Position numbers and translations under genes: made by a program. Of a stretch of 48,984 bases of DNA, positions 3,401-20,080 are shown piece by piece; position 1 is the stretch's first letter; each line of letters begins with the position of its first letter. The stretch covers positions 1 through 48,984 of the forward strand of contig JAKBCC010000006.1 in NCBI GenBank assembly GCA_021808105.1, given 5' to 3'. A model generated the notes under the pieces. The model searched no databases. It worked only from the letters and a program-made list of their open reading frames with translations, and was not told the DNA's origin. Source of the stretch: Planctomycetota bacterium (GTDB lineage Bacteria > Planctomycetota > Phycisphaerae > WQYP01).

Positions 3401-5292
3401 GCCAAACGGCGGGGCCACTGAGCTTGACGGAGAATGCCACCGGCGGATCAGCGTTGAATCCAGGTGGCAGCGGCGGCTTCGCCAACAGCGTGTTGAATCA
3501 GAATCTCGCCGGCTTGTCCAATGCACCGTCATCCCTGACCCTGAATGTCAGTTCCACGGGTGGCAATGGCGGGACGGCAGATGCATTCACGAACACCAGT
3601 GGCCAGACTCAAACAATACTCGGCGGCAAGGGAGGCGGGCCGATAAGTTCTGCCCTCGGCAGCCTTTCCGGCAACGGTGCGGTCACCATTAGCGCCACCG
3701 CCATCGGCGGCAATGGCGGGGCGGGGGATACCGCCGCAGGTATTTCTGCAGGCCCAAGTGGCGTCGCTCAGTTAGGCCAGGTGAGTGGTCAATCAGGCAC
3801 CGGCGCGGTTAGCGTGTTGGGAACCGCCATTGGTGGTAATGGCGGGAACGGAGCTAACGAGAATCTCTACAACGCCGTGGGTGGCCAAACGGCGGGGCCA
3901 CTGAGCTTGACGCTGAACGCCACCGGCGGATCAGCGTTGAATCCCGGTGGCAGCGGTGGCTTCGCCGACAGCGCGTTGAATCAGAATCTCTCCAGCTTGT
4001 CCAGCTCGCCGTCATCCTTGACCCTGAACGTCAGTTCCACGGGTGGCAATGGCGGAGCGGCCGATGCTTTCGAGACCACCAGTGGCCAGGTTGAGTCGAT
4101 CCCGGGTGGCAATGGAGGCGGGACGATGAGTTCCGCCGTCGGCAGCCTTTCCGGCAACGGTGCGGTGACCATTAACGCCACCGCCGTGGGCGGCAATGGT
4201 GGCGCGGGGGAAGATGCTGTAGGTATTTCCGGGGGCCAAGGAGGCATTGCCCAATTGGGTCAGGTGAGTGGCCTATCGGGCACCGGAGCGGTTAGCGTGT
4301 CGGGAACGGCGATCGGCGGAAACGGTGCGTACGGAGCTAGCGAATCTCTGAATAATTTGGTGACCGGAACAACCACAGGCTCCCTGTATTTAACGCAGAC
4401 AGCGCAAGGGGGTAACGGCGTTAACGGCGGCAATGCGGTCAGTAGCTTAACCCCTTCCGCTTCCGAAAGTAGCAATCTGACCTTGGTATCCCAAGCTATA
4501 GGGGGCGTCGGGGCTTTCCCAGGACCCGGCCTGATGGTTGGTAGAGTGCCACAATCGGGCACCGCTCTGGCGGATGCCGGCGGCATGGCGGAGGCCGGAA
4601 CTGCCACCACAATCGCCACCGCGCGTTCAAGCGCCGGAGATTTTATTCAATCGATTGTCACGCAAGCCGGCGCACCGTTATCTTCAAGTGTTAGCCGGAA
4701 TGTAGAGAGCTTCGCCTCAATCGGTCAACCCATGCGGATCAGTGACGTGGCTGGACTGCAGGCAGTTTCTTATGCAACTGGTTTTACGTCCCTGACGGCA
4801 CCAACCTCCGATGGTGCGGTGGAATTGGGGAGTGCCTTATTGCAGGCGGGAGGTGACTCCTCGCCAATTGCGTATACCGCAAGCGCGACGTGGGATTTCA
4901 ACCCTGTAAAGCTTTGGGTCCCCGGGCAAAGCATGATTGTTACATTCTCAAATGTCGGCTATACCGGGTCGGGATTGGTAAGCTTTAAAATTCTTTTGAA
5001 CAACGAATTGGTTGGAGGGGTTGGCGACCAAGGGACATCGGTAAATTTTGCGATGGCCCAGAATTATTTTACACATTCACCGATAGATCTGGGAACGCTG
5101 GATGCTATGCCGCAGAACTCAACGCTGGAATTATTACTTTCTGTGGTCAGTACTGCCGGTGGTGTATTTGATCCGACCGTCAATTTATACAATGGCCCAT
5201 TGTCCAGCGTACCGGAGCCGGGAGCCTTGGCGATCCTGCTCCTGGGCACTTTGCCCATGGTATTACGAAGAAGGCGGAAAGCTTCACAGTAA
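457..5292 (+). CDS. Giant glycine-rich repeat protein with PEP-CTERM anchor
   Basis: A 1611-residue exported protein of unknown function. The ATG at 457 is preferred over an in-frame TTG at 397, because GGGAGGA lies six bases before it and the promoter covers the TTG. An N-terminal signal peptide (RRRRCRKSLL then a hydrophobic stretch ending ...AAQA) leads into Gly/Asn/Ser/Ala-rich sequence full of GGNGG motifs. Seven repeats of about 161 residues fill roughly residues 190-1310. A non-repetitive region of about 260 residues follows, then a PEP-CTERM tail: VPEP, a hydrophobic helix and the basic end RRRRK. In this family the tail directs sorting by an exosortase and release at the surface, often with exopolysaccharide. 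No exosortase gene is in the window. A surface or biofilm-matrix role is inference only. Confidence 0.85.
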   Translation: MIAYSRRRRCRKSLLSVVSLAVVVGVSSAAQATTITVTGFTGGPGQNGGTADATARSGSITDADAMATATGGNGGNGTATTPNGGAGGTASAGAYIGTGGPALTDFPQVIVSATAIGGQGGYGDTAARGISGNGGYASLGTVSGGSSSLGAAVFVTGSVQGGDGGLAPSERLSNAVRGYSNGGSLALTQNATGGSALNPFGSGGYASSVLNENFAGASNAPSSLTLNVSSMGGNGGAANTFTTTTGQIQPIPGGRGGGTMSSAVGSLSGDGAVTIDATAIGGNGGAADTVAVISAGPSGVAQLGQVSGQSGSGAVSVSGTAVGGNGGNGIDESLNNSVRGQTAGPLSLTQNATGGSALNPGGSGGYASSVLNENFAGASNAPSSLTLNVSSTGGNGGTAGTLTSIGGQIQPIPGGNGGGTMSSAVGSLSGDGAVIINATAVGGNGGAADTVAVISAGQGTIGQLGQVEGQSGSGAVSVSGTVIGGNGGNGVNESLNNAVRGQTAGPLSLTQNATGGSALNPYGSGGYASSVLNENLAGFSNTPSSLTLNVSSTGGNGAAAGLFASTTGQIQPIPGGKGGGTMSSAVGSLSGDRAVTINATAIGGNGGAADTAAGISGGQGTGGQLGQVSGQSGTGAVSISGTAIGGNGGNGANENLDNAVGGQTAGPLSLTQNATGGSALNLGGSGGFASSVLDQNLAGFSNAPSFLTLNVNSTGGNGGAAGTFTSTSGQIQLIPGGNGGGTMSSAVGSLSGDGAVTINATAIGGNGGAADIAAGISAGQGTAGQLAQVSGQSGTGAVSVSGTVIGGNGGNGVNESLENAVSGQTAGPLSLTQNGSGGSALNPGGSGGSGGSVLIENLVGANAPSSLTLNVSSTGGNGGAAGTNPSTGGQPQAVPGGNGGGTQSSAVGSLSGNGAVTINATAIGGNGGAADIAAGISAGQGAAGQLGRMSGESGTGAVSVSGTVIGGNGGDGANEVLDNVGGQTAGPLSLTENATGGSALNPGGSGGFANSVLNQNLAGLSNAPSSLTLNVSSTGGNGGTADAFTNTSGQTQTILGGKGGGPISSALGSLSGNGAVTISATAIGGNGGAGDTAAGISAGPSGVAQLGQVSGQSGTGAVSVLGTAIGGNGGNGANENLYNAVGGQTAGPLSLTLNATGGSALNPGGSGGFADSALNQNLSSLSSSPSSLTLNVSSTGGNGGAADAFETTSGQVESIPGGNGGGTMSSAVGSLSGNGAVTINATAVGGNGGAGEDAVGISGGQGGIAQLGQVSGLSGTGAVSVSGTAIGGNGAYGASESLNNLVTGTTTGSLYLTQTAQGGNGVNGGNAVSSLTPSASESSNLTLVSQAIGGVGAFPGPGLMVGRVPQSGTALADAGGMAEAGTATTIATARSSAGDFIQSIVTQAGAPLSSSVSRNVESFASIGQPMRISDVAGLQAVSYATGFTSLTAPTSDGAVELGSALLQAGGDSSPIAYTASATWDFNPVKLWVPGQSMIVTFSNVGYTGSGLVSFKILLNNELVGGVGDQGTSVNFAMAQNYFTHSPIDLGTLDAMPQNSTLELLLSVVSTAGGVFDPTVNLYNGPLSSVPEPGALAILLLGTLPMVLRRRRKASQ
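1036..4400 (+). repeat. Seven in-frame tandem repeats of about 483 bp
   Basis: The block encoding GGSALNP recurs near 1036, 1519, 2002, 2485, 2968, 3445 and 3928, so the period is 483 bp (161 codons), with one unit of about 477 bp. Each unit carries, in order, SSLTLNVSS, GGNGG, PGGxGGGTMSSAVGSLSG, ATAIGGNGGAAD, LGQVSGQSG and GQTAGPLSLT. Units one and two are identical over more than 75 nucleotides (about 1066-1147 and 1549-1630). This points to recent duplication or gene conversion. Confidence 0.85.
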
Positions 5293-5452
5293 ATGAAAAC
5301 TTGGTGCCGCCCCCCCCGTTTTTCTAAACGGTAACCTTTCGCACGATCGGCAACCGAATGGTTCACCCCTGCGACTACCCCGCCATCTCCTGCAGTTCGG
5401 AGGCACTGCGGGTAGAATACAGGCCGGTGTTTGGCAGAGGTAGTCTTAGATC

Positions 5453-7264
5453 ATGCTGCGTGAACTGCATATTTCCAATTTGGCCGTGATTGCGGATGCG
5501 GCGGTTGAATTCGACGCGGGCCTGAACTGTTTTACGGGGCAGACCGGAGCCGGCAAGTCGCTGGTGTTGGGGGCGTTGGAACTGCTGCTGGCGTTGCGGT
5601 CAGGGCAGAATATGCTGCGGGCCGGGGCCAGCGAGGCGCGTATTACCGGTGTATTTGTTATTCAAAACCCCGCCCTGCGCCGCCGCCTGGCGGAGATCAC
5701 CGATCTGCCCCTGACGGATGAACCGGAAATTATTCTCGTGCGGCGAATTCATGAATCAGGCCGCACCACGGCTTCACTTAACGGCCAGCCGCTAACCGGC
5801 TCGATGCTTAAAAACATTGCCGAGACGCTGGTAGACATTCACGGTCAGCATGATGCACAATATCTGCTTAAGGCCGCCAATCAACTGGCGCTGCTTGATG
5901 ATGCAGGACATCTTAGTGCGGTCGCGGAAGAATTCCGCGAACTGTATCAGCAGCGGCGGGAATTGATGATTCAATCGAGGGAACTCAATGCGTCGCAAAC
6001 CCTGCGCCGGCAACAGATGGAACTTTATGAATTTCAGTTCCGGGAAATTGATGACGCTGCCCCGCAACCGGGGGAATTAGAGGTCCTTGAAGCGCGGCAT
6101 CGGCTGTTAAGCAATATCGAAAAAATTAAACGCCTCGGCGGCAGCGCGTATGAAGCGCTCTATGAAGATGACGCCGCCATTATCGGCCGACTGAAGACCG
6201 TTACCGCAGTTCTTCTGGAGGCGGCGGAATTAAACCCTGATTTTATCGCCGCCGCCGGACAGGTAAAAGATTCCACGATTGCCCTGGATGATGCGGCCTT
6301 TACTCTGCGGCGCACACTGGATCATCTGGAACTGGACCCCGAAGAACTGGCGACGGTAGCCGATCGGCTCAATACGCTCAATCGACTGATCAGCAAATAT
6401 TGCGGCCATGGCGGCGGTCTGGATCAGTTGCTGGAGTATCACGAAAGCAATAAAGTGCAGCTGGCACAATTAAAATCCGCCGATCAAAACTCCGCCGACT
6501 GCGACGCACACATTGCAGCGATGGAAAAGCAGCTATTAACCATTGGCGCCAAACTTTCCCAGGGGCGGAGAAAAGCTGCGGAAGTTGTTATGCCGGGGGT
6601 GCATCAGCAACTGGCGGATTTGGGAATGAAAGAAGCCCGGTTTCATATTGAATTTCTGCCGGTGCCCGGCGCAGGAGAGACGGAGGGCCACCCAGACGAT
6701 CCATTTGCTTCACCCAGTGGAATGGAGACGGTGGAGTTTATGCTGGCACCCAATCCCGGGCAGCCGGCGCGGCCGTTGCGCAAAATCGCCAGTGGCGGAG
6801 AACTGTCACGCGTGATGCTGGCGGTGAAGTCCATTTTGGCCGCCTCCGACCGGGTTAGCGTGCTGGTGTTTGATGAAATTGACGCCAACGTCGGCGGACG
6901 GATGGGCACGATTATTGGTGAAAAATTGCGCGATATCGCCGGGCGGCACCAAGTGCTGTGCATCACGCATTTGCCGCAGATTGCAGCCTATGCGGACCGG
7001 CATATCAGTATTCGTAAAGTCGTGCATAATGGCGAAAGTTTTACATCTGTGGCAGCTCTGGCCGGACAGGTGCGCCTGGAGGAACTGGCGGAAATGATTA
7101 CGGGGAAAAATATTACCCCCACCTCACTGGCGCAAGCCCAGGAACTTTTGGCCTTGGCAGTTAGAAAAGCAGAGCCTGCGGCACGGGCGGCACCGACAAC
7201 AGACTCCAAGCGCGGCAAGGTGAAAGCCCCAGCCGCAACTCGAAAAAGCATGGCGGAGAAATAA
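5453..7264 (+). CDS. recN: DNA repair protein RecN
   Basis: SMC-like ATPase that acts in the cytoplasm in recombinational repair of double-strand breaks. It is 603 residues long, close to the usual 550-590. The N-terminal half opens with the family signature LRELHISNLAVI and a Walker A motif GQTGAGKS (residues 29-36). A long middle region is rich in Glu, Gln and Leu, as expected of the coiled-coil arms, and includes DIHGQHDAQ near residue 128. The C-terminal half has the ABC signature ASGGELSRV near residue 445 and a Walker B segment VFDEIDANVGG near 470, followed by the TH-P-Q-A switch region (CITHLPQIAAYAD). The last 30 residues are a basic, low-complexity extension. The MATE gene follows 52 bp downstream on the same strand. 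Confidence 0.95.
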   Translation: MLRELHISNLAVIADAAVEFDAGLNCFTGQTGAGKSLVLGALELLLALRSGQNMLRAGASEARITGVFVIQNPALRRRLAEITDLPLTDEPEIILVRRIHESGRTTASLNGQPLTGSMLKNIAETLVDIHGQHDAQYLLKAANQLALLDDAGHLSAVAEEFRELYQQRRELMIQSRELNASQTLRRQQMELYEFQFREIDDAAPQPGELEVLEARHRLLSNIEKIKRLGGSAYEALYEDDAAIIGRLKTVTAVLLEAAELNPDFIAAAGQVKDSTIALDDAAFTLRRTLDHLELDPEELATVADRLNTLNRLISKYCGHGGGLDQLLEYHESNKVQLAQLKSADQNSADCDAHIAAMEKQLLTIGAKLSQGRRKAAEVVMPGVHQQLADLGMKEARFHIEFLPVPGAGETEGHPDDPFASPSGMETVEFMLAPNPGQPARPLRKIASGGELSRVMLAVKSILAASDRVSVLVFDEIDANVGGRMGTIIGEKLRDIAGRHQVLCITHLPQIAAYADRHISIRKVVHNGESFTSVAALAGQVRLEELAEMITGKNITPTSLAQAQELLALAVRKAEPAARAAPTTDSKRGKVKAPAATRKSMAEK

Positions 7265-12270: not shown

Positions 12271-12336
12271 CACCGGGGTGATAACCCGGTGGTCCGTTGG
12301 CGGCAGTGGATCAACCACCGGATTAACATCCGGTGC
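12271..12336 (+). repeat. Paired-hairpin intergenic repeat, copy 1
   Basis: Two adjacent hairpins: CACCGGG/CCCGGTG (12271-12277 and 12285-12291) and CACCGGAT/ATCCGGTG (12316-12323 and 12328-12335). The two halves are also rough inverted copies of each other. Related copies lie at 16652 and 18165, each next to a gene end or start. No T-tract follows, so a simple intrinsic terminator is unlikely. Confidence 0.8.
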
Positions 12337-12398
12337 TTGTGAAGAAAGTCGCGCTTCCAACCGATCGGGTCCTTTGCAGCACTCTTGGTTATCCGGCC

Positions 12399-18164: not shown

Positions 18165-18231
18165 CACCGTGGTGATAACCCGGTGGTTGGTTAGCAGCAC
18201 TGGATCAACCACCGGATTATCATCCGGTGCT
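18165..18231 (+). repeat. Paired-hairpin intergenic repeat, copy 3
   Basis: A near-full copy: the left hairpin is degraded (CACCG...CGGTG with GTGATAACCCGGTGGT intact) and the right hairpin CACCGGAT/ATCCGGTG is perfect. The segment GGATCAACCACCGGATTA is shared with copy 1. It lies 20 bp after the rfbC stop. Confidence 0.8.
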
Positions 18232-18331
18232 CTCCAAGTAATGACGACGATGGCGTACCTCAACACGATGATACGGCCGCGTCGCAGAGGGGGAAAAGAA
18301 AAAAGCGCCCCGGGCTCGCCAGGCCATGTGA

Positions 18332-18680: not shown

Positions 18681-18719
18681 TATTGGATAAAATAACACTT
18701 AGTGTTATATTATCCAATA
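18681..18719. promoter_or_regulatory. 39-bp palindrome upstream of DUF4143 ATPase
   Basis: Outer arms TATTGGATAA (18681-18690) and TTATCCAATA (18710-18719) are perfect. Inside, ATAACACT/AGTGTTAT (18692-18699 and 18701-18708) pairs around a single T, with one mismatch between the stems. It sits 24 bp before the ATPase ATG in the divergent intergenic space, so it could be an operator or a recombination-type site. A related hairpin follows the gene at 20044. Confidence 0.8.
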
Positions 18720-18742
18720 CCCGTGCTGTTCAGGAGCCGCCG

Positions 18743-19984
18743 ATGTATGACCGATTTCTCACAAAAGCCGTCCTTGCGGCCTTGAAGGATACGCCCGTGG
18801 TATTGCTTCAGGGGCCGCGACAATGCGGTAAAAGTACGCTGGTTCAAAGCCTGGCGCGCGGGCCGCACCGGGCCAGATATATTACGCTGGATGACCCTGT
18901 GGCACGGGCCGCCGCGGTCAGTGCACCGTCGGATTTTATTGCCGGTATGACGGGGCCGGTCGTGATTGATGAGGTGCAACTTGCTCCCGAGATATTTCGG
19001 CCCATCAAGCTTTCCGTAGATAACAATCGCCGACCCGGACGATTTTTACTGACAGGCTCATCCAATATTCTGCTGTCGCCAAGGCTTTCCGATTCTCTGG
19101 CCGGGCGAATGGAGATCATTCCACTGCAGCAACTTTCACAAGGGGAGATCGCTGGCAGCCGTGAGGGTTTTATTGACATGGCATTCGGGAAAAAGCCTCC
19201 GCCCATGCGCGATTATGCCACCATCAGCCGCGATCGCCTGGCGAAAGTGATCACCGCCGGCGGCTATCCTGAGGCGATCCATCGCCGGGAGCCACGACGG
19301 CGGGAGGCCTGGTTTAATTCCTATATCACCACCCTTCTGGAGCGCGATGTGCGGCAACTGGCCGCGATTGACGGCCTGACGCAGATGCCGCGGCTGCTGA
19401 GCCTGCTGGCGGCGCAGACCGGCGGCTTGTTGAATGTTGCCGAGCTTTCGCGTGATCTGGGTTTTGCCCAGCCCACCTTGGCACGCTATCTAACGCTGCT
19501 GCAGGCGACCTACCTGTATCAGCCGCTGCCGGCATGGTCTATCAATATTCATAAACGGTTAATTAAACGGGAGAAAGTTTACCTCAGCGACACCGGATTG
19601 GCAGCGCACCTTCGCAATGTGGACGCGCAGAATCTTGCCGCCCCGCAACACAATATGGGGGCACTGGTAGAGTCGCTGGTGGGACAGGAGCTGCGTAAAC
19701 AAAGTGCCTGGAGCGCTATGCACCCCAAAGTCTACTACTATCGCACGGCCGACGGTAAAGAGGTGGATTTTGTACTTGAGGGTCGCAACGGCGGAATTGT
19801 GGGCGTGGAGGTGAAAGCCAGCCTGAATGTGAAGGCGTCGGAGCTGGCGGGTCTGCGCGATCTTGCCCAGACCGCAGGCAACAGATTTATCCGCGGCATC
19901 GTTTTGTATCTGGGCCGCGATGTCCTGCCGATCGGCCCCCATATCACCGCCATGCCCCTTACGGCCCTGTGGACGCCCTGCTGA
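18743..19984 (+). CDS. DUF4143-type AAA ATPase
   Basis: A 413-residue ATPase of the AAA_14 plus DUF4143 architecture. The start at 18743 follows CAGGAG by six bases. The N-terminal domain has Walker A GPRQCGKST (residues 24-32) and Walker B PVVIDEVQ, then the sensor segment RFLLTGSSN. A winged-helix-like middle (LSRDLGFAQPTLARYLTLLQ) precedes the DUF4143 domain. Near the end lies DGKEVDFVLE...GVEVKAS, which looks like a PD-(D/E)XK nuclease core. Family members are widespread and often horizontally acquired; their role is poorly defined. Here the gene stands alone, flanked by matching palindromes, which suggests a self-contained module. Confidence 0.88.
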   Translation: MYDRFLTKAVLAALKDTPVVLLQGPRQCGKSTLVQSLARGPHRARYITLDDPVARAAAVSAPSDFIAGMTGPVVIDEVQLAPEIFRPIKLSVDNNRRPGRFLLTGSSNILLSPRLSDSLAGRMEIIPLQQLSQGEIAGSREGFIDMAFGKKPPPMRDYATISRDRLAKVITAGGYPEAIHRREPRRREAWFNSYITTLLERDVRQLAAIDGLTQMPRLLSLLAAQTGGLLNVAELSRDLGFAQPTLARYLTLLQATYLYQPLPAWSINIHKRLIKREKVYLSDTGLAAHLRNVDAQNLAAPQHNMGALVESLVGQELRKQSAWSAMHPKVYYYRTADGKEVDFVLEGRNGGIVGVEVKASLNVKASELAGLRDLAQTAGNRFIRGIVLYLGRDVLPIGPHITAMPLTALWTPC

Positions 19985-20041
19985 TTGCGACCCGGACAAG
20001 AACCGGAAGGATAAAAGATCGTGACATGTATATGTTTGGAG

Positions 20042-20080
20042 TATTGGATAATCTAACACTTGCCGTTAGATTATCCAACA
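20042..20080. repeat. Hairpin downstream of DUF4143 ATPase
   Basis: Perfect 14-bp arms TTGGATAATCTAAC (20044-20057) and GTTAGATTATCCAA (20065-20078) enclose the loop ACTTGCC. The outer TATTGGATAA matches the palindrome ahead of the gene. It begins about 58 bp after the ATPase stop. No U-tract follows, so it is not a standard terminator. Confidence 0.8.

Follow-up and report, generated by a model that had tools for sequence, protein, structure and literature searches.

A subfamily-specific palindrome at the candidate promoter of DUF4143 ATPase genes

A DUF4143 gene between two related palindromes

The window, by which we mean the whole stretch of 48,984 nucleotides analyzed here (contig JAKBCC010000006.1 of a Planctomycetota bacterium), hosts a gene whose product is a STAND-like AAA+ ATPase that carries a winged-helix segment and a predicted nuclease domain of the PD-(D/E)XK type. 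The gene lies between two related palindromes, hereafter P1 and P2 (Table 1). The corresponding open reading frame is listed from 18665, but the true start, judged by N-terminal conservation, is at 18743. Pfam recognizes only AAA_14 (PF13173) and DUF4143 (PF13635) in the protein, and no transposase or recombinase domain. PADLOC places it in the PDC-S01 family with 529.6 bits, and an NCBIfam search of the protein returned one match, far below the cut-off.

The AlphaFold model of the protein has a mean pLDDT of 94. Residues 1-292 match the STAND ATPases 2qen (VIA Z 16.2, 252 aligned residues, rmsd 4.5) and 2fna (VIA Z 15.4, 250 aligned residues, rmsd 4.1), followed by a plant NLR, CED-4 and Avs5, and the matches of the full-length model span mostly residues 1-327. 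Judged from the model, the protein has the NTPase, helical and winged-helix fold of the STAND NTPases and belongs among them. The same NTPase-plus-winged-helix arrangement is seen in SSO1545, PAB2304 and the module of Avs, NLR and CED-4; unlike these, the DUF4143 protein has a C-terminal domain with PD-(D/E)XK-type residues, which leaves no space for a repeat sensor. The active site of PD-(D/E)XK nucleases follows the pattern E/D...D...(D/E)xK, and the residues E340, D342, E356 and K358 reach at least 90% conservation in two alignments, one of 71 and one of 61 sequences, which suggests, at the level of conserved residues, membership of this superfamily. The winged helix is modeled with helices at 212-224, 232-239 and 243-255. 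When the sequences of solved structures were searched with the protein, only non-significant matches were found, among them those of the winged-helix segment to ArsR-type repressors (E 0.26 and 0.5).

According to the text of PMC12988326, PDC-S01 is the fourth most common defence system across prokaryotes (9986 archaeal and 29494 bacterial systems), consists of an ATPase domain fused to a member of the PD-(D/E)XK superfamily and underwent multiple transfers between domains; validation is pending for most such defence candidates. DUF4143/PDC-S01 is a candidate phage-defence gene, very common and hardly studied. The window genome alone holds seven DUF4143 genes, and at least two of the others are directly preceded by palindromes of 39-41 bp that are unrelated to P1. 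A toxin-antitoxin pairing was also considered for the DUF4143 gene; the neighbouring genes differ between loci.

The initial annotation of this DNA described the gene as flanked by related palindromes, and this is confirmed. P1 has 19-nt arms with one mismatch around a 1-nt centre and is separated from the ATG by a spacer of 23 bp. P2 has perfect arms of 14 nt (20044-20057 and 20065-20078) and begins approximately 58 bp 3' of the stop codon (19982-19984); the two palindromes are equally long, and their alignment needs no gap. With three mismatches allowed, a degenerate search finds just these two sites in the window, as compared to a mean of 0.19 sites in 100 shuffles of the window, only one of which had two. 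The exact pattern is confined to this locus in the whole genome (94.6% complete) and occurs in 5 out of 61 genomes, all from one genus (represented by 8 genomes) and always beside the DUF4143 orthologue. We accordingly reject a regulon of many sites of the window type. Both palindromes are present in the window genome (G000) and in three relatives (G002, G004 and G007). A fifth species (G005) has a single copy, longer and perfect, upstream of its DUF4143 orthologue, and no P2 was found there. In the alignment of the five species P1 stands out as a conserved block amid otherwise diverged intergenic DNA. P2 is nearly identical across four species, while the approximately 58 bp that precede it have diverged, as has the following sequence in the window genome. 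We rejected P1 as a simple intrinsic terminator, as it lies upstream of the gene, over a candidate promoter; for P2 the same reading is unsupported, as P2 is absent from the list of the terminator scan.

Table 1. Features of the DUF4143 locus, in positions of the window
Feature	Position	Strand	Basis
P1, 39-bp palindrome, inferred operator	18681..18719	+	sequence; conserved block
Candidate -35 hexamer TTGGAT in the left arm of P1, spacer 17	18683..18688	+	sequence reading
Candidate -10 hexamer TATATT in the right arm of P1	18706..18711	+	consensus match only
Shine-Dalgarno-like AGGAG	18732..18736	+	sequence reading; conserved in five-species alignment
AAA_14 + DUF4143 ATPase gene, PADLOC PDC-S01, 413 aa	18743..19984	+	Pfam, PADLOC, AlphaFold
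Walker A region, residues 24-32	18812..18838	+	invariant G24, R26, G29, K30
Winged-helix segment, residues about 207-272	19361..19558	+	model helices; palindrome correlation
PD-(D/E)XK-type motif E340-x-D342 ... E356-x-K358	19760..19816	+	alignments
P2, second 39-bp palindrome copy, 3' of the gene	20042..20080	.	sequence; conserved in four species

Upstream palindromes across the DUF4143 family

We searched for DUF4143 genes with a profile built from 32 proteins and scored the palindromes around them. Within the taxonomic family, 58 genes matched the profile from position 25 or earlier and had at least 60 bp of upstream sequence; orthologues were kept in this set, and one gene was counted twice (L044, identical to L089). 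An upstream palindrome scoring at least 9 precedes 32 of these 58 genes, whereas 14 of the 1158 stretches taken from elsewhere in their loci reach this score; with a score of at least 12, the counts are 24 out of 58 and 0 out of 1158. When only the phylum-wide loci are considered, 11 of 28 genes score at least 9, compared to 6 of 277. For a wider set we also dropped hits that scored below 200 bits or had fewer than 85 bp of upstream sequence, and reduced 118 genes to 103 non-redundant ones. This set takes in more loci of the phylum as well as 15 of 16 plasmid loci (Azotobacter, Rhizobiaceae, Novosphingobium, Thermus, Spirosoma, Ruminococcus, Wolbachia and others), the one from Actinomyces (L185) being left out. 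Again the genes are enriched in upstream palindromes with respect to their neighbours (score of at least 9 in 40/103 and 11/230, respectively; P-value = 4e-20, Mann-Whitney test), although this and the other P-values of the survey are optimistic, since the planctomycete loci that supplied the profile are themselves surveyed, each control ORF was simply taken to begin at its first start codon, and the genes are related by descent. Scores of at least 12 are found upstream of 23/103 genes and 2/230 neighbours. On the other hand, 51 of the 103 genes score below 8, some of them with imperfect palindromes. Downstream of the genes, palindromes are not enriched (score of at least 9 in 3/103 genes and 10/230 neighbours). 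The signal is also detectable on viral contigs (42 loci, or 37 genes after removal of 5 redundant ones), where looser cut-offs were applied to genes (at least 100 rather than 200 bits) and to control ORFs (at least 100 rather than 150 aa): 12/37 genes and 10/141 controls score at least 7 (P-value = 2e-4; P-value = 0.002, Mann-Whitney test), while the difference at a score of at least 9 is not significant (4/37 and 5/141, P-value = 0.09).

Because palindromes are enriched upstream and not downstream, the P1-type palindrome is general to the family, though not universal, and P2 is not general. The initial annotation had proposed to look for such palindromes around other DUF4143 genes: many of them do have one upstream, but about half have no strong palindrome and few have one downstream.

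To compare palindromes between proteins, we took the stretch from -62 to +2 of 97 genes, with the stretch from -140 to -76 as a control, and considered sequences as shared at a score of at least 14. Among 111 pairs of proteins with 50-60% identity, 28.8% share the upstream sequence, and this percentage increases to 84.4% of the 64 pairs with 60-90% identity; the control stretch is shared by 0% of the pairs in both classes. Palindromes of the CCTTGCAAAT type are found in Planctomycetota, Acidithiobacillus and Dinoroseobacter, and a GAATGATTATCATTC core is common to a planctomycete locus (L171) and a Thermus locus (L181) whose proteins are 48% identical. These comparisons suggest that each protein subfamily has its own palindrome, which is kept with the gene in different genomic places.

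When overall identity is held constant, the similarity of the palindromes follows the identity of the winged helix (partial r 0.139, permutation P-value = 0.002), a small correlation over pairs that are not independent. It does not follow the ATPase part (partial r -0.014) or the nuclease part (-0.053). The correlation, weak as it is, points at the winged helix as the domain expected to read the palindrome. In many STAND proteins, however, the winged helix does not bind DNA. A host regulator might occupy the palindrome in place of the DUF4143 protein. We consider this highly improbable: one genome has several DUF4143 genes with unrelated palindromes, palindromes as similar as those of the planctomycete and Thermus loci above recur across phyla, and in 61 genomes the window-type palindrome is found only at the DUF4143 gene.

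Palindromes scoring at least 8 (49/97 genes) are 35 bp long in the median, with the median centre at 28 bp from the start codon on its upstream side, and 46 of 52 end no more than 22 bp away from this codon. A -35/-10 pair is contained in several of them, for example a perfect TTGACA-N17-TATAAT in one locus (L051) and TTGGAT-N17-TATATT in the window, where a consensus scan places the -35 one base away and the region has 3 matches compared to 2.1 expected. Over 52 palindromes, promoter-like hexamers match 7.7 of 12 positions, compared to 7.1 in shuffles that preserve the palindrome (P-value = 3e-4); the effect is modest, and many single palindromes do no better than their own shuffles. By this measure the palindromes of the family tend to hold a promoter. 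Together with their symmetry and their specificity for the protein, this gives them, at the level of sequence, the features expected of an operator over the gene's own promoter.

Palindromes of this kind could also work in the transcript, P1 as a 5' hairpin that controls translation or mRNA stability and P2 as a 3' hairpin or terminator. The predicted RNA folds are indeed stable, with -22.7 kcal/mol for the P1 region (z -3.6) and -17.6 kcal/mol for P2 (z -5.5), and the mismatches within palindromes lean towards G-T over A-C (38 and 22, respectively; P-value = 0.052), as would fit an RNA hairpin. However, 95 of the 133 mismatches are not G-T, a palindrome that holds the promoter would be only partly transcribed, its similarity follows the winged helix of the protein, and P2, as mentioned, is missing from the terminator scan. 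We therefore regard a role in the transcript as very unlikely.

Cassettes in different genomic places and the outer edge of P2

Where relatives differ in genomic context, their homology often extends from approximately the left edge of the palindrome to approximately the stop codon. Of the 30 listed pairs with at least 70% identity, 19 have the left edge of homology within 10 bp of the palindrome (a hand count, in which pairs overlap). Over all left-divergent pairs, this is the case for only 84 out of 344, because distant pairs align inside the gene. The initial annotation had proposed to look for empty sites in relatives, and one was found: a palindrome-plus-gene cassette of the window genome (G000:C192) sits between flanks that, in a relative lacking the cassette (G003:C309), are only 72 bp apart. 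In a second relative both flanks occur 0.5 kb apart without the gene (G005:C57), and two more (G002 and G007) have the right flank alone. Homology with the right flank starts 1 to 30 bp past the stop codon at the G000:C192 site and 5 to 7 bp past it when G002 is compared to the same empty sites. On the left, approximately 100 bp next to the palindrome of G000:C192 match neither side of the empty site. No target-site duplication was recognized at the one filled/empty pair inspected, whose flanks have diverged. At another locus, G003 carries rmlC without a DUF4143 gene (G003:C72), while in G005 the last 110-140 bp of rmlC (Pfam PF00908) are duplicated across the DUF4143 gene, 3' of it (L094, G005:C8). 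The argument that an unvarying locus would have made against the initial annotation does not arise, as the locus does vary.

A rearrangement junction coincides with the outer edge of P2, which is joined to different DNA in the window genome and in the three relatives that share P2. In these relatives P2 is fused to the end of a Maf gene (L012:4282-4947, L013 and L011; Pfam PF02545 in G007), the last codons of which come from P2 when compared to the Maf of G000, G003 and G005. The Maf frame reads into P2 in G004 and G007 and stops inside P2 in G002. In the window genome Maf has its own end and is found on a different contig; P2 is followed there after approximately 200 bp by a JAB gene and then by rhodanese and phosphoglycerate-dehydrogenase-like genes.

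Second palindrome copies are rare elsewhere (L032/L095, L101, L074 and L067). In L032/L095 the copies are identical (39/39), and the repeat carries the upstream flank and approximately 38 nt of the gene; in L101, L074 and L067 the second copies are partial. As gene starts, upstream flanks or both go with the repeat, the second copies in L095, L101, L074 and L067 look like decayed tandem duplicates. In L067 an internally deleted DUF4143 copy (4970-5480, reverse complement), reduced to the gene start and approximately 200 bp of the end and accompanied by a palindrome, lies 1.9 kb downstream of the intact copy. We considered P2, too, as the remnant of a decayed second gene copy and rejected this reading for the window clade, in which P2 is not followed by a gene start and has been conserved across four species.

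These data bear on the suggestion, made in the initial annotation, that gene and palindromes form a mobile unit. The presence of one cassette in one relative and its absence from another stands in its favour, as does the junction at P2, where P2 stands in the place of the last codons of Maf in three relatives. So do the frequent start of homology at the left edge of the palindrome and the identical palindromes on both sides of a family member (L032). A minimal mobile element, which the AAA+/nuclease protein would move and for which the palindromes would serve as ends or as recognition sites, would fit these observations. It is nonetheless unlikely in our judgement. The inverted repeats at both ends that characterize an insertion sequence are not found as a rule, since the downstream side is not enriched in the survey; the loci with palindromes on both sides are those of the window clade, L032 and, within longer repeats, L101 and L074. 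Moreover, the second copies of L095, L101, L074 and L067 resemble decayed tandem duplicates, no target duplication was recognized at the inspected site, the 100 bp left of the G000:C192 cassette are unaccounted for by either side of the empty site, and the left edge is sharp in a minority of the left-divergent pairs. Conservation of this edge could equally stem from selection on an operator.

The palindrome might also serve both as operator and as end site of a one-gene mobile element. The protein would then read its own palindrome through the winged helix and repress itself there, and the activated STAND-nuclease would cut or recombine at the same site and move the cassette, so that junctions would fall precisely on the edge of the palindrome, as seen for P2. 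We hold this combination to be decidedly improbable.

Several other repeats were noticed. Just past the DUF4143 stop codon, L089 and L074 carry a long inverted repeat (55 bp and 41 bp, respectively) whose ends are GGAGCCTGTCCAAGTAAT-like, probably another small repeat element, and a sequence similar to one half of it lies left of the G000:C192 cassette. A dispersed, MITE-like repeat of approximately 190 bp (L053:1-190, G002:C5:9600-9790) has many copies in at least 7 of the 8 genomes that represent the genus, with none for G005 among the matches listed. Window positions 18166-18239, which contain a 17-bp inverted repeat (18173-18222), and 12271-12338 resemble a dispersed repeat copy in G007 (G007:C327, 14878-14951), and a similar stem-loop is found near a DUF4143 gene of G000:C49.

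A candidate self-repressing defence gene

Taken as a whole, the sequence evidence makes it rather probable that P1 is the gene's own operator, at which the STAND-nuclease protein represses itself, and that palindrome and gene form a cassette. P1 would cover the promoter of the DUF4143 gene, and the protein, as a symmetric oligomer, would probably bind it through the winged helix and keep its own gene repressed until the protein is titrated or switched by a trigger such as invading DNA. The cassette would be autonomous, consisting of a promoter-operator and one gene, with the palindrome of the subfamily staying with the gene. The initial annotation had raised self-regulation as one possibility, and the position of the palindrome near or over the promoter and its covariation with the winged-helix segment argue well for it. 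Auto-repression alone does not explain P2. In the window clade the operator may have been duplicated to the 3' side of the gene and kept there, perhaps because it forms a loop with P1 as a further binding site or acts as an antisense promoter, and would mark the end of a rearranged segment.

Operons of toxin-antitoxin systems and restriction controllers are autoregulated through a palindromic operator over their own promoter. The DUF4143 cassette would be alike in that a mobile stress or defence gene is kept off by its own operator, and different in that one protein would be both the regulator and the nuclease effector. A STAND-type ATPase at a promoter has been described in mycobacteria, where the SSO1545-like IniR is reported to bind one; there, according to the text of that report, DNA binding is predicted for a separate C-terminal domain and the target is another operon, iniBAC (PMC5760070). 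The word 'palindrom' does not occur in that text.

Evidence on induction may come from Thermus thermophilus, in which TT_P0211, an AAA_14 and DUF4143 protein, is reported in the text of PMC4406477 to be 6.6-fold up with plasmid DNA in a strain with Argonaute, with no such change in the strain without it. We infer from position and product that TT_P0211 is the DUF4143-type ATPase gene annotated in the corresponding part of pTT27. This gene has a TGAATGACTATCATTCA palindrome at -20 to -3, ending 3 bp before the start and containing TATCAT on one strand; its score of 6.5 is below the thresholds of the survey.

Outside preprints and most subscription journals, almost nothing is in print on how DUF4143/PDC-S01 proteins work. 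The main text of PMC12988326 contains none of 'palindrom', 'operator', 'promoter' and 'autoregulat', and a palindrome or operator at DUF4143 genes is not mentioned in the available text of PMC4406477, PMC12988326 and PMC13356809; PMC2635572 contains both COG1373 and 'palindrom', though in passages that have nothing to do with each other. What is added here to the knowledge of PDC-S01 is the cis palindrome and the structure of the cassette.

With tens of thousands counted, DUF4143/PDC-S01 proteins are among the commonest candidate defence systems. A promoter palindrome that is specific for the subfamily and travels with the gene suggests that the protein keeps itself off until it is needed. If true, it would provide a predicted DNA target and an auto-repression circuit for these proteins, would open simple assays, such as gel shift, reporter and induction by phage or plasmid, and would explain how a single gene, found by itself at many sites in genomes, can nevertheless be kept under control.
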